Source: Chloropicon primus
Taxonomy: Eukaryota > Chlorophyta > Chloropicophyceae > Chloropicales > Chloropicaceae
Length of the DNA: 64,000 nt
Direction: 5' to 3'
Assembly (NCBI GenBank): GCA_023205875.1
Contig: CP060754.1
Span: 124,001-188,000, forward strand
Of this stretch, positions 31,925 to 36,261 are shown one piece after another. Positions within the stretch are counted from its first letter, which is position 1. The number at the start of each line of letters is the position of its first letter. A program made the translations under genes and the position numbers. Under the pieces are notes generated by a model that was not told the origin of the DNA, made no database searches, and saw nothing but the letters and a program-made list of their open reading frames with translations.

Positions 31925-32175
31925 GTTAAAGTAATAATAAACTAAGGGCCCCACGACCACCATCCATTCGTTCGTTGCGTGTTTGTCCAAAACCCAGCCC
32001 CTTATGGTGTTCAGACATCAGATCAAAAACAGCACACAGAAAAGTCACGAAAGGACGGTAGGGAAATCACAGTCAATACTGGAAGCACAGAGGCAAGTTC
32101 TCCTTTCCACTGAAAGAGAGAAACACGGAGAGAAACGAAGACCGGCCACAACTTACCTGTTAGTTTTCTGCAAAG
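31925..32175. other. Intergenic between PYROXD1 and the Fanzor element
   Basis: No coding frame supported. On the minus strand GTAAGT (32156-32151) and TTTCAG (to 32110) could form a 47-nt intron in a Fanzor-side transcript, but there is nothing else to support it. The left boundary of the mobile element must lie in or near this stretch. Confidence 0.4.
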
Positions 32176-32179
32176 GTCG

Positions 32180-32309
32180 TTTCACCGAGTTTGTAAGTTT
32201 CTCGGCAGGGTAATTCAGCCCTACCACGACCATTCCACCGTACATGAACGAACACTTCCGCCCACGCACGGCAGCCCGTACTAACAAACGTATGTGCAAC
32301 CCTGAGGAG
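32180..32309 (-). ncRNA. Candidate Fanzor guide RNA (omega/fRNA) region
   Basis: Directly after the Fanzor stop codon on the same strand. Two adjoining hairpins can be drawn. One pairs 32219-32223 with 32206-32210 around an 8-nt loop. The next pairs 32205-32201 with 32189-32185 (CCGAG/CTCGG) around an 11-nt loop. TnpB and Fanzor guide RNAs are known to start in the 3' part of the nuclease gene and run to the element end, and to have this kind of stacked hairpin. Extent and activity are inference. Confidence 0.45.
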
Positions 32310-34481
32310 TTACACACTTTTTGGTTGACGCAAGTGCTTCAGGAGGACGTTGCGTGCCCCGTTCACATCCCGACCGCACTTGAAGCCACACTTCTGGCAC
32401 TTGTACACCTCTGCTCCACCCAGGTTGTCCTTGATGTGTCCGCACTTGCCACAGGTCTTGGAGGTGTACTCCTCCGTCACGATCGCCAGCTCACTGCCGT
32501 GCAAGAGCACCTTGGAAGCCAAGAACGTTCTGAACGCATAGTGCCTCAACGTCAAGAGCGTGCGAGCCGTCTTCTTCCTGATCACTCGGCGTCTCCCGTT
32601 GTTGTTCTTCTTCACCATGTCTTGGGACTTGAACTCCGGGAGGAGGATTGTGTCGAACCTCCTGCATAGATCGTTGGCTACCTTTTTGTGAAGCTCGTTC
32701 GTCAGACCTCGAAGTTTCTCCATGCAGGCGTATTGCTGTCTCTTCAAGTCGCGGCGGTCGAGGTAAGGGAGCTTCACCTTTGGGTCTTTGCGCTCGGAAA
32801 TGATCTCATCAATCCTCCAGCAGAGGTTGAACAGCCTCGCGAAGCCTCGCTCGCCCTTGGCATACTCCCCGACGCCTTCTTGCGGCGAGTACGACGTCTG
32901 AAAGGTCCTGACTCCCGGATCCAGGGCGACAACCTTCCGCTTGTTCTCAGGCTTCAGGGGTGGCAGGCGATCCCATGGCGTCGCGATGGGAATGTGCATG
33001 TGGAACTGCCCAAGGCGATTTCTTGTGATCTTCACGGCACCCTCGATCTTGCCCCCGGGGATCTCCTCCGTCAAGTACAGGGGCCCGCCGGCCATCTTCT
33101 TCTTGAACACCTCCAGCTTGGTCCACTTGCGTCGTTTGTTGTGCTTGGTGTCATCCTTGTGCCTCGTGTTTGGCCTTTCGATCGTCTCCACGTTCTTTAA
33201 CTCTCTTGCATCAATTTCAATGGTCCAAGAGCTCGGTTGCTGACGTTGACGATACTTGAGAACGAAGCGGTGCCCCTTCTCCTCGCCGCGCTCCTTCATC
33301 GCTTCCTGCTTCGCGATGTTCGAATCCCATGCCTTGATGAGACTTCGCACGGCAGCTTGTCTGATGGCACAGGGGGTATCCTTCAGCCAAGGATGCTTCT
33401 GATTTACAAAGGCCCCGCTAACGTAGTCCCGGTCCTTGCCCACTTGGATGCGAAAAGCTCTGCCTCCAATTTGGCTCTCGAGTCTCTTCTCTCTGGCCGC
33501 GAAAAGCTCTGCCTCCTGTTTTGTCCATGGCCGTGGAGAGCATTGGATTTCTTTCAGCTCTTTCTCCAGGCCCTCAAAGACCTCAGGGCCTCGAGGTTTG
33601 GCCGTCACAAATCTGTCCAGCAGGACGGTCCAAACCAGCGGAAAACGCTCCTTCTTGACCGCCTCCAAACACTTGTTGTATGTGAAACGCGCAGCTCCCA
33701 TCCAGTTGCAAAGGCACTTCGCCTGCTCAGGGTTCAAGCGCATCCTCAGCTTCCTCGTCCGTATCACCGTTCGCTCCGACAATAGCTTGGAGGTCTTCAG
33801 TTTCTGCCCCCTCTTCCTTTTGGCGGGCGACTGCAATGCCTCGACGGATACCACAGAATCTTCTGGAAGGTTCAAGCACGACCTCCATCCCGTCTTCGGA
33901 CACTTTACCTCTTCAAGTTCTCTCTTGATCGATGAGAACCAGGTCTTCTTCACGCTGTCGTCCGCCAAGCCACCCGGCTGCTTCCCTGCTTTCTTCCCCC
34001 TCTTGTTCTTCTTCTTCTTACCCTTCTTCTTGTTCTTCTTCTTGCCCTTCTTGCGAGGCTTCTTGCGAGGCTTGCCTGACGAGCTCGAACTCTCACCCGC
34101 AGAGGAAGCCGCCTCCGGCGGCTTCCCCTTCCGCTTCCCCCCCCGCTTCTTGCGAGGCGTGCTCGAACCCTCCTCGAAAGCAGAGGCGGGGTCGTCCAGC
34201 GGCTTCTCCTTCCGCTTCCGCCCCCGCTTCTTGCGAGGCGTGCTCGAACCCTCACCCGCAGAGGCGGGGTCGTCCGCGATAGGAAGCAGGCACAACGAGT
34301 AGAGCAACTGCAAGCCCTGATTCCAGAACCGACGTAACGGCCGCTCCGTCGTCGGAGACTCCTGCCCCGACTTCGAAGCGCCCTGAGCATGACTCTCGCC
34401 AGAGTGCGACCTCCTTGTGGAACTCGTCGAGCCACTCCCCTGCTTCTCCTTTTTCTTACGGCGCTTCCCTGATCGCGCCAT
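32310..34481 (-). CDS. Fanzor (eukaryotic TnpB-like) RNA-guided nuclease, apparently intact
   Basis: OrfB/TnpB-family RuvC nuclease with an OrfB zinc ribbon. Fanzor proteins cut DNA guided by an RNA made from the element itself. The ATG at 34481 gives 723 residues without interruption. The N-terminal 230 residues are Lys/Arg/Ser-rich with two to three copies of a repeat containing GSSTPRKKRG, good nuclear-localisation candidates absent from bacterial TnpB. A TnpB helix-turn-helix part follows (RLNPEQAKCLCNWMGAARFT). The RuvC triad is complete: Asp521 in VVALDPGVRTF, Glu616 in ILLPEFKSQDM and Asp705 in CGRDVNGARN. Four zinc Cys (677, 680, 695, 698) lie in the ribbon. YTSKTCGKCG and the short tail resemble the Fanzor2/IS607-type branch. 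Confidence 0.93.
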   Translation of the reverse strand: MARSGKRRKKKEKQGSGSTSSTRRSHSGESHAQGASKSGQESPTTERPLRRFWNQGLQLLYSLCLLPIADDPASAGEGSSTPRKKRGRKRKEKPLDDPASAFEEGSSTPRKKRGGKRKGKPPEAASSAGESSSSSGKPRKKPRKKGKKKNKKKGKKKKNKRGKKAGKQPGGLADDSVKKTWFSSIKRELEEVKCPKTGWRSCLNLPEDSVVSVEALQSPAKRKRGQKLKTSKLLSERTVIRTRKLRMRLNPEQAKCLCNWMGAARFTYNKCLEAVKKERFPLVWTVLLDRFVTAKPRGPEVFEGLEKELKEIQCSPRPWTKQEAELFAAREKRLESQIGGRAFRIQVGKDRDYVSGAFVNQKHPWLKDTPCAIRQAAVRSLIKAWDSNIAKQEAMKERGEEKGHRFVLKYRQRQQPSSWTIEIDARELKNVETIERPNTRHKDDTKHNKRRKWTKLEVFKKKMAGGPLYLTEEIPGGKIEGAVKITRNRLGQFHMHIPIATPWDRLPPLKPENKRKVVALDPGVRTFQTSYSPQEGVGEYAKGERGFARLFNLCWRIDEIISERKDPKVKLPYLDRRDLKRQQYACMEKLRGLTNELHKKVANDLCRRFDTILLPEFKSQDMVKKNNNGRRRVIRKKTARTLLTLRHYAFRTFLASKVLLHGSELAIVTEEYTSKTCGKCGHIKDNLGGAEVYKCQKCGFKCGRDVNGARNVLLKHLRQPKSV
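34185..34260. repeat. Tandem repeat in the Fanzor N-terminal coding region
   Basis: A unit of about 75-80 bp with CTTGCGAGGCGTGCTCGAACC recurring in shorter form occurs twice (about 34120-34200 and 34200-34265), with a degenerate third copy toward 34060. It encodes the basic segments with DDPASA...GSSTPRKKRG. Confidence 0.7.
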
Positions 34482-34698
34482 GACTGCTAGGGTTTCACTC
34501 GGCGTCCTCCTCCCTTCCTCTCGCGAGGTAAGATTTTTTACCAGTGCCTTGCCCAGCAAGTGAGAACACGAGCAAACATTTTGTGGGTTGTCCTTTGGGT
34601 GTGACCAAACTGGTATACACTGGAATCCCACCAACAGGGGAAAACCTCCAACACCGAAACGAAAAATGGGGGGAGGAAAAGATTAGACGAAGGAGGGA

Positions 34699-35277
34699 AT
34701 GATGATTGCTGCTGCTCGTTTGGGTGTCAGGTCTGTGGGGGGAAGAGGAAGAGGGCTCTTACTCACGACGAGGTCAAGGTCGGTTGGTAGAAGTGCGGCA
34801 ATGGCGGGGGGAGACTCGTTGTACAAGTACTCCGCCTTGGACATCGACGGCAAGGAGACAAAGTTGTCGAAGTTCGAGGGGAAGGTGAGCCTTGTTGTTA
34901 ACGTGGCGTCCTTCTGAGGCTCGACGAAGCAGTACGCAGGTCTCCAGAAGCTTTATGAAAAGTATGAGGACGACTTCGTAGTGCTCGCCTTCCCTTGCAA
35001 TCAATTTGGCAAGCAGGAGCCTGGAAGCGAAGCGGAGATAAAGGCTTTCGTGGCGGACAAGTACGGGGTGACGTTTCCTATGTTCTCGAAGATCGACGTC
35101 AAGGGCCCTGAGGCCCACCCGATCTACAAGTTCTTGCAGGCGAACGAGTCTGACGACGTGGGCTGGAACTTCTTCAAGTTTCTCGTCAACAAGGAGGGCG
35201 AGGTCGTCGGGAAGAGACACTCCAACAGAGTTACTCCCGAGGACCTGGACGACGATATTGCTGCCCTCGTGGGCTAA
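34699..35277 (+). CDS. GPX: Selenocysteine glutathione peroxidase, left copy (TGA at 34915-34917 = Sec)
   Basis: Thiol peroxidase that reduces H2O2 and lipid peroxides. 192 residues with the TGA read as selenocysteine 73: the context VNVASF-U-GSTKQYAGL is the GPX active-site NVASxUG motif. Coding continues in the same frame for 119 codons. FPCNQFGKQEPG carries the catalytic Gln and WNFFKFL the catalytic Trp, so the tetrad is complete. The Arg-rich leader (about 40 residues, RSVGGRGRGLLLTTRSRSV) suggests plastid or mitochondrial targeting, and a second ATG at codon 36 could give a cytosolic form. A SECIS fold lies 75 nt after the stop. This is not a pseudogene. Its promoter is shared with the divergent Fanzor gene. 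Confidence 0.93.
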
Positions 35278-35344
35278 GCGCTTCCCGTCTTCCGAGCGAG
35301 CCTCCCTTGCGAGAGCAACCCGGTGCGGGGGCGGGACAGGGACA

Positions 35345-35396
35345 GAAGATCATGACCGGGGCACCTCAAATACGCATGGTGCTTTGTGATTACGAC
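35345..35396 (+). promoter_or_regulatory. SECIS element, left GPX copy
   Basis: Core from ATGA (35352-35355) to TGAT (35387-35390). GGGGCACC pairs with GGTGCTTT (including G-U pairs) below an apical loop containing AAA. The quartet ATGA/TGAT and the unpaired As are the diagnostic eukaryotic SECIS features. The open apical loop is form 1. Confidence 0.85.
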
Positions 35397-35507
35397 ACGC
35401 ATGAAAAATGCTAGCTTTTAACCTTTCCGCCCTTGTAAACGGAGTTTTTTTTGTTTTGTTGTTGTTTTACACGAAAACACGAGAACCAAAAAAATCGCTC
35501 AAGCAAT

Positions 35508-35586
35508 CACGTTCCCCCTCCCCCTCCGCCCATGGGAGTACTTGGAAGACACCATGGTCCGGTCCGGTCGCACTCTCGTTCCCCCC
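35508..35586 (-). repeat. Reverse-oriented fragment of the GPX3 5' coding region
   Basis: About 75 bp nearly identical to the reverse complement of 39548-39623, with a 4-nt length difference near 35561. In GPX3 this sequence covers the start codon and first 16 codons; here it is noncoding and adjoins the inner edge of the left arm. Confidence 0.88.
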
Positions 35587-35685
35587 TCTTGTTCCTCGGG
35601 GGTAAAATTGAATGGAGTCGAATCACGATAACGGACAAACGAGAGAGAGACGCAGACGCCAAGGAGACAAGGAGACAAGAGCACC

Positions 35686-36261
35686 ATGACTGAAGAGGAA
35701 GAGCAGGTTTCCCCTGTTTCGCCCGCGGAGTCGCCCGTCGTGGTGGAGTCCGAGGAGGTGCAGGAGGTGGTGGCACCACCAGAGCCGCTTCAGGAAGTCG
35801 AGCCCGAGCCGTTACCAGAGCCCGAGGTTTCGGAGGTTTTATCGAGCTCGAGGGCCGAGATGGAGAGAGCTTCCGCTGAAAAGAAGAGGCTGTCCATCCA
35901 AGGTGAGTCCCGGGCCTCACTCGAACGTTAAGGAGAGCCTCCCAAGCTGAGCCTCGTTCTTTTTCTTTCTCTCGCACACGCACGCACGACGACGACGACG
36001 ACGACAACACACAAAGCGGGACAGAGGGAGCTCGAGAAGATAAGAAAGGAGCTCGACGAGAAGGCTGCCGCGAAGAGGGATGCAGTGCGCGAGGCGAGCC
36101 AGAGAAGCGAGCAGAACAACATCGCCGACATGGCTCCCACGGCCACGAGGACCAAAGAGGAGTCGTGGGGTTTGGTCTGCGACTTGGTGGATTTCAAGAG
36201 GGACACGAAGGCGGACATGTCGGTGATGAGGGCCGTGCTCCTTCAGCTCAAGCACGGCTGA
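35686..36261 (+). CDS. Clathrin light chain-like protein
   Basis: Two exons, 35686-35902 and 36017-36261, around a 114-nt GTGAGT...AAAG intron that holds an ACG repeat. 153 residues. An acidic, Pro/Val/Glu-rich N-terminal half (PVVVESEEVQEVVAPPEPLQ) leads into a coiled coil (ERASAEKKRLSIQAGQRELE) and the C-terminal segment WGLVCDLVDFKRDTKADMSV followed by MRAVLLQLKHG. This acidic head, heavy-chain-binding coiled coil and end with a M-R-x-(V/I)-L-x-x-L-K motif fit clathrin light chains. It is shorter than most. Identification is moderate. Confidence 0.65.
35985..36006 (+). repeat. ACG trinucleotide repeat in intron
   Basis: Seven or so ACG units inside the intron of the clathrin-light-chain-like gene, close to its 3' splice site. 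Confidence 0.85.

Follow-up and report, generated by a model that had tools for sequence, protein, structure and literature searches.

A Fanzor2-carrying transposon family of Chloropicon primus with a candidate internal scaffold border and a hypervariable junction

The Fanzor2 locus

The DNA considered here (the window) is a stretch of 64,000 nucleotides from contig CP060754.1 of the green alga Chloropicon primus. At 32310..34481 on the minus strand it holds a gene of 723 codons plus stop that encodes a Fanzor2, an RNA-guided nuclease, as judged from its open reading frame, its domain matches and its conserved catalytic residues; the class is the one assigned to the C. primus family in the available part of a published account (Yoon et al. 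2023, PMC10711439). An earlier note, made from the sequence alone, had reported an uninterrupted 723-codon frame at this place, and this is borne out on the minus strand, the plus strand of the interval being interrupted by stops. The note was silent on the fact that the gene is part of a transposon and belongs to one of about 30 copies of that element. The whole window copy comprises 2652 bases (32002..34653), and all of its features described below lie on the minus strand. The element is, with near certainty, a young, non-autonomous C. primus DNA transposon that carries a Fanzor2 RNA-guided nuclease. Inside it are found a border that is shared with short relic loci and, at a fixed distance beyond this border, a hypervariable junction. 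These may reflect an internal guide that matches the element itself, together with repeated cutting by the nuclease of the element's own copies, a reading whose chances, judged from sequence, we put slightly below even.

The protein contains a Cas12f1-like TNB domain at residues 647-712 (E 9e-18) and an HTH_OrfB domain at residues 240-277 (E 1.9e-6; both Pfam), and it matches the NCBIfam model guided_TnpB at E 2.3e-26 with 93 bits, which is under the curated cut-off of 100 bits. Residues 1-230 are basic, of low complexity and rich in Lys, which bears out the basic N-terminus of about 230 residues given in the earlier note. The nearest solved chain is that of the TnpB-like protein L79 (PDB 9b0l; E 1.5e-19), which we take to be a mimivirus IS607-type protein; it carries the catalytic glutamate at the same alternative place in the alignment, but is 520 residues long and is without the long N-terminus. 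The other solved relatives are TnpB and Cas12f chains, and no chain named as a Fanzor passed E 1e-3. A C. primus protein that is 97% identical to the window protein is recorded as a ‘putative IS605 transposase’. An internal repeat of about 85 bp is seen in the N-terminal coding part (34114-34278), and open copies of the gene range from 695 to 746 codons.

Catalytic residues were compared in the 20 open copies of the family and in an alignment of 17 proteins (the window protein, P0002 of C. primus and 15 others). The RuvC-I aspartate, Asp521 (codon at 32919..32921), stands in a DPG motif (Asp521-Pro-Gly) in all 20 open copies and all 17 proteins. The zinc ribbon, Cys677 to Cys698 (32388..32453), was recognized from the alignment and the open copies, and its four cysteines (677, 680, 695 and 698) are kept in 20/20 open copies, as are Asp521, Glu670 and the RuvC-III aspartate Asp705 (codon at 32367..32369). 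The earlier note had named Asp521, Glu616 and Asp705 as the RuvC triad and had counted four zinc-ribbon cysteines; the cysteines and the two aspartates stand, whereas the Fanzor glutamate is Glu670 (codon at 32472..32474). Glu616 is not the catalytic residue, since it varies among the 17 proteins (P0007-P0010 have V, A, I and V there) and both Pro615 and Glu670 are unchanged in all of them. On our reading, Pro615 of the ..LLPEF.. strand would occupy the place of the canonical Glu of TnpBs. Glu670 is found six residues ahead of the first zinc cysteine, Cys677. A glutamate so placed relative to the zinc finger (Ealt) has been used, together with DPG at RuvC-I, to define Fanzors (Yoon et al. 2023, PMC10711439); the fingerprint pattern, as given in the part of that source available, matches the window protein over residues 521-705. 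Glu670 is thus likely to be the catalytic RuvC-II glutamate.

The transposon family

A protein search of the C. primus assembly (17.58 Mb in 20 contigs) gave at least 62 matching pieces. Forty loci were retrieved; 30 of them (L009-L038) contain the greater part of the gene and are spread over 14 contigs, and the other 10 are fragments. The element copies are similar to one another from TGTTGGAGG to ..CATAACA, over about 2.64 kb, and the ends of the window copy were placed where the 30 related copies lose similarity: the left end, TGTTGGAGG.., is at 34653 and the right end, ..CACCATAA, is at 32002. Twenty-one of the 30 copies extend to within 3 nt of both of these ends; L010, L017, L018, L019, L027 and L037 lose similarity at element positions 2597-2623, just short of the right end. 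An exact 5-bp target-site duplication was found in 16 of the 22 copies for which both ends were scored, alongside near-duplications in L026 and L033 (4/5 bases matching; the left end scored in L026 belongs to an upstream short element) and 11 bp inside a repeat in L034; the window copy, L025 and L029 have none. The termini are TGTT..AACA only, a long inverted repeat not being seen. The frame is open in 20 of the 30 copies, the other ten not being open by the criterion used. Relative to the family consensus, ..CATAACA, the right end of the window copy is two bases (CA) short. Because these last two bases are missing and no matching duplication is formed by the flanks, the window copy is probably stuck as a transposon; the statement in the earlier note that this copy shows no break therefore applies to the gene, which is intact, and not to the element.

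No transposase was found inside the element. For the serine-recombinase TnpA, resolvase domain matches occur at four places in the genome, none of them at a Fanzor copy; two of the four (L054 and L055) belong to another repeat, and the element does not qualify as IS607. An LTR (long terminal repeat) or Ginger origin, considered on account of the TG..CA ends and the 5-bp duplications, was rejected, as there was no rve domain match at E 1e-3. An autonomous partner sharing the element ends was likewise rejected: 26/26 right-end matches (up to three mismatches) and 33/33 left-region matches fall at Fanzor copies, at short elements or at the orphan right part L052. The short elements have the same ends and another middle (L049, L050, L051 and the one upstream in L026), and the stretches that these Fanzor-less elements have in common with the window copy are 34545..34653 at the left end and 32002..32129 at the right end. 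Upstream of the insertions, CAG occurs within nine bases before the left end in 18/28 (background 11.8%) and CTG in 3/28; the distance of this CAG varies and it is always on the strand of the gene, a feature that was noticed after the fact.

Relatives of the nuclease

The tree was built from the region between RuvC and the zinc finger and has 58 rows: 30 proteins, 8 viral rows, 19 prokaryotic rows and L056, a Fanzor1-like C. primus locus that is the only labelled Fanzor reference. The window protein groups with P0002 (100/100), with P0006 (94/93) and with further uncultured proteins in a 17-row group (98/92). It thus lies among uncultured relatives and apart from the cyanobacterial proteins, the tree being a check that the earlier note had proposed; 18 of the 19 prokaryotic rows are cyanobacterial and are placed elsewhere in the tree. 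The remaining one, L120 (labelled Desulfatirhabdium), forms a pair with a viral row next to the 17-row group, and L056 is a very long branch of uncertain placement. The prokaryotic rows come from a set of 80 loci, 30 of which were tried and 19 gave frames. A viral search with the single window protein gave no match, and one with alignment A1 gave 28 loci at 25-47% identity, eight of them with frames usable in the tree. The strict fingerprint is found in 26/30 protein rows, 7/8 viral rows and 19/19 prokaryotic rows, counts that arise partly by construction, as one of the locus-finding patterns contains DPG.

A second C. primus family is represented by four further places with a TNB domain, namely L056 (C5:819400-822300), C5:154870, C2:358209 and C13:73514. 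With a DPG, a glutamate at the alternative place and a longer spacing, L056 looks Fanzor1-like to us, and a search with it gave one protein, a C. primus ‘hypothetical protein’.

An internal border shared with relic loci

Part of the 3' untranslated region (UTR) of the gene, at 32157..32309, is proposed to be a guide-RNA scaffold; it ends in ..AAAACTAACAG, at the common stop of a set of relic rows. Nine short rows (L040-L047, with L042 represented twice through a tandem duplication, hence eight independent) keep 55-105 codons from the end of the gene and the first part of the 3' UTR, and L053 is a row with UTR/scaffold only. The left ends of the relics differ, while their right ends coincide, the duplicated pair aside, right after ACTA(A/G)C(G/A)G; L053 shares three bases more with the element beyond the border. 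In the window copy this border is at 32157, 155 bases before the present right end, and it reads ACTAACAG in all 30 element copies, never the GG form. The sequence TTGTTAGT (32280-32287) can pair with ACTAACAG (32157-32164). The pairing strand GTTAGT is retained in 10/11 rows (it is missing in L040) and is still kept in L045 and L046, where the middle is quite different. The 153-nt proposed scaffold of the window copy folds better than shuffled sequences (z -3.7); for four relics the corresponding values are -0.4, -0.75, -1.9 and -2.2. Since the proposed scaffold is kept and the nuclease gene is missing, the relic rows would count as ghost loci. On our reading, the border would be the scaffold/guide border of an older, IS607-like Fanzor2, and the short loci its relics. 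One-sided homing was rejected as the origin of the relics, their right flanks being without a common sequence of guide length. The left parts of L044 and L046 have about 80 nt in common that are not Fanzor sequence, as if the two were copies of a small composite element.

A hypervariable junction beyond the border

Immediately past the border, 28 of the 30 copies have 15 near-fixed bases (GTAAGT..GGCCGG, in three variants) and L016 and L035 have 16. In the window copy these are the first 15 bases of the proposed internal guide (GTAAGTTGTGGCCGG, 32142..32156), which has exact matches in the genome only in elements. Indeed, all 28 exact genome matches to the degenerate 15-mer are at element copies, and with one mismatch there are 3 matches elsewhere, compared with 2 for a reversed control pattern. 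The near-fixed bases are followed by a copy-specific junction, after which the common sequence ..CAGTGGAAAGGAG resumes in 29 copies; in L030 it resumes further right. In the window copy the junction (from +16) and a pyrimidine-rich array ending in TTTCAG occupy 32110..32141, proposed to be a self-cut scar.

The variability of this spot stands out within the element. The 20-nt window that starts at +16 has 25 haplotypes in 27 copies, of 17 lengths, and the overlapping preceding window has 23 haplotypes in 24 copies, while over 261 such windows the median is 2 and the 95th percentile 6; the next separate variable spot, at element positions 63-82 near the left end, has 13 haplotypes in 27. Among 29 parsed copies there are 27 distinct junctions. 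The filler is 5 or 6 nt long in 21 of these (5 by eye in L030), and as it follows 15 near-fixed bases the left edges lie at +15 and about +20/21. On the right, between 3 and 42 nt are kept, and these begin in 11 of the 12 phases of a 12-nt repeat, without steps of a repeat unit. Three short elements that keep the array without the guide are identical over its last 22 nt, and L052 begins inside the array. In 10/29 copies the filler is array-like but out of register, which would be consistent with at least two rounds of cutting.

Between element positions 601 and 1600 the ten windows have a nucleotide diversity of 0.011-0.037; it falls below 0.01 in 8 of the 9 windows of 1601-2500, rises to 0.058 at 2501-2600 and is 0.008 in the last window; further left it varies from 0.0013 (201-300) to 0.091 (101-200). 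Mean pairwise synonymous divergence (dS) among the 20 open copies drops from 0.042 in codons 231-505 to 0.004 in codons 506-723. Repair from sister copies could account for this dip in synonymous divergence next to the junction, as could the history of recombination or an overlap with the guide RNA. For the same copies the ratio of non-synonymous to synonymous divergence (dN/dS) comes to 0.66 overall; the N-terminus taken by itself gives 0.87 and the last part 1.9, a value that goes with its very low dS. The earlier note had suggested that the gene could still be active and had proposed dN/dS as a check; the overall value is weak evidence and does not establish that claim.

Neighbouring genes and other repeats

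The window copy lies between a pyridine nucleotide-disulphide oxidoreductase gene and a glutathione peroxidase (GPX) gene. A divergent promoter shared with the latter had been suggested, but the arrangement results from the insertion of the transposon. The GPX neighbour (34801-35277, plus strand) has one in-frame TGA that can be read through as selenocysteine (ASFUGST), and after this read-through it matches GSHPx at E 1.2e-42. No Rfam match to a SECIS (selenocysteine insertion sequence) was found in 35250-35750, and no Rfam match above gathering score in 32000-35700.

The resolvase matches are at C2:316320, C3:1404945, C9:638220 and C16:68745 and possibly mark an unusual eukaryotic serine-recombinase element. 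L054 (94-3054) and L055 contain a repeated gene, of about 986 residues in L054 and in two broken frames in L055; in this gene a single resolvase domain reaches significance (470-573, 4.2e-10), with a second, similar stretch visible by eye ahead of it.

A possible self-targeting guide

The proposal starts from the family, its ends, the border shared by the relics and a hypervariable spot at a fixed distance from that border. From these we infer that the border would be the working end of the scaffold and ACAG the target-adjacent motif (TAM), that the nuclease would make the breaks, and that end joining would make the scars. An older Fanzor2 element, whose RNA scaffold ended in ..ACTAACGG, would have been caught inside a transposon that makes 5-bp duplications, and this capture would have left the scaffold border 155 bases inside the element. 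The guide would then be the sequence past the border (GTAAGT..GGCCGG..), which is exact only in the element's own copies, and the nuclease would make staggered cuts in those copies, near +15 on one strand and near +20/21 on the opposite one. Each cut would leave a fresh scar through end joining, and diversity on the left side of the cut may be evened out by repair from sister copies. Retention of the first 15 bases may reflect an enzyme that holds the TAM side after cutting, as Cas12 does, or a role of these bases as a splice donor. A stronger version, in which the locus would be a natural case of a self-targeting guide and the captured Fanzor2, with no exact target in the genome outside its own family, would repeatedly scar the copies and homogenise the DNA beside the scars through repair between them, is put forward more tentatively still, as somewhat less probable than not.

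Several observations weigh against this proposal. The 15-mer comes in five variants, two being one base longer, and GTAAGT..TTTCAG resembles an intron; the low-diversity window at 201-300 (0.0013) is far from the junction; the control consists of three short elements, and all of the data come from one assembly. Yoon et al. (2023, PMC10711439) predict a Fanzor2* scaffold that takes in the end of the transposon and the duplication, and the cut positions of the two tested Fanzor2s are different ones: 19 on either strand for NlovFz2, and 17/18 and 9-14 for MmeFz2 (Saito et al. 2023, PMC10432273).

Were that prediction for Fanzor2*s to hold here, the guide would come from the flank past the right end, the end and the duplication would lie inside the scaffold, and the junction would be an unrelated fragile stretch. 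The right-end TAACA could, as we read it, pair with TGTTA of the upstream strand, as such a scaffold would allow. Yet the 28 left flanks (24 Fanzor copies and 4 short elements) have no fixed TAM-like motif, the highest information being 0.37 bits at -16, the relics end at the internal border, and the variable spot at +15 to +21 is left unexplained; a flank-derived guide is therefore considered unlikely, if still worth serious attention. The intron-like appearance suggests a different account, in which an intron of 24-72 nt, running from GTAAGT to CAG, contains a pyrimidine-rich repeat that is unstable, and slippage or DNA structure makes the alleles without any part for the element's own nuclease. 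The donor and acceptor look perfect, there are pyrimidine-rich fillers and the array has one to three 12-nt units. Slippage fits poorly with right edges in 11 of 12 repeat phases, with fillers that are absent from the array (ACGG, GTTCCA and a 17-nt one), with two copies only 24 nt long, with filler lengths clustered at 5-6 and with an array that is identical in three short elements, and an unstable intron also seems to us an unlikely source of the junctions.

It is less probable again that the Fanzor is carried along as an inert passenger by a transposon that has multiplied recently, its gene open only because the burst is young. A dN/dS of 0.66 (0.87 in the N-terminus) across 20 open copies, with 10/30 copies not open, would suit such a passenger. 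Set against this are the junction pattern, which fits an active nuclease, and the retention of the catalytic and zinc residues in 20/20 open copies, although youth alone could explain the latter. Bacterial contamination, or a bacterial TnpB in the assembly, would be in keeping with the domain matches to TnpB-type models but can for practical purposes be discounted: the 30 copies are spread over 14 of 20 contigs among host-type neighbours, the protein is present in the public C. primus record, and the tree points the same way. The claim of the earlier note that this is a Fanzor in an algal nuclear genome is upheld on the same grounds.

Comparison with known systems

According to Yoon et al. (2023, PMC10711439), the C. 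primus Fanzor2* is carried by a transposon of the cut-and-paste type, which makes target-site duplications and has degenerate terminal repeats. The family in the window is very likely the same, and for this reason the finding of the gene is already known. In contrast to the present analysis, the available part of that account has no internal border, relics or hypervariable junction, and it is these, rather than the published Fanzor family, that are new here.

Like the nuclease proposed here, the TnpB of ISDra2 is a RuvC nuclease guided by RNA of its own element, and it cuts 15 and 20-21 from the TAM (Karvelis et al. 2021, PMC8612924), positions that match the junction edges; it differs in belonging to a bacterial IS200/IS605 element, in taking its guide from flanking DNA and in having its glutamate at the canonical position. 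Among Fanzors, SpuFz1 cuts at 16/17 and 20/21, GtFz1 cuts at 14-17 and 14-16, and the TAM of MmeFz2 is TAG (Saito et al. 2023, PMC10432273). As far as the cut positions given in these sources go, the junction edges therefore fit TnpB and nearly fit SpuFz1, but not the two tested Fanzor2s. SpuFz1 of Spizellomyces punctatus is also similar in having many copies, gene-less guide-RNA ‘ghost’ loci and staggered cuts near the positions inferred here; however, it is a Fanzor1 whereas the window gene is a Fanzor2, and its ghosts, as described in the part of the literature available, keep both transposon ends, whereas the relics here keep neither and stop at the internal border.

Self-targeting or homing guide RNA recorders, in which the guide gene is its own target and collects scars, offer a further parallel. 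These recorders are engineered Cas9 tools, whereas the case proposed here would be a natural one involving a Fanzor. A natural self-targeting Fanzor was not found in titles and abstracts among the matches listed, a coverage from which subscription papers are mostly absent.

Implications for Fanzor biology

If the scars are self-cuts, they bear on the role that Fanzors play for their eukaryotic transposons: the C. primus genome then records Fanzor activity in vivo and shows the cut position without an assay. The predicted guide boundary of the C. primus element would then have to be re-examined, because a ribonucleoprotein with the wrong boundary is expected to fail, and the family would be a natural counterpart to engineered self-editing recorders.
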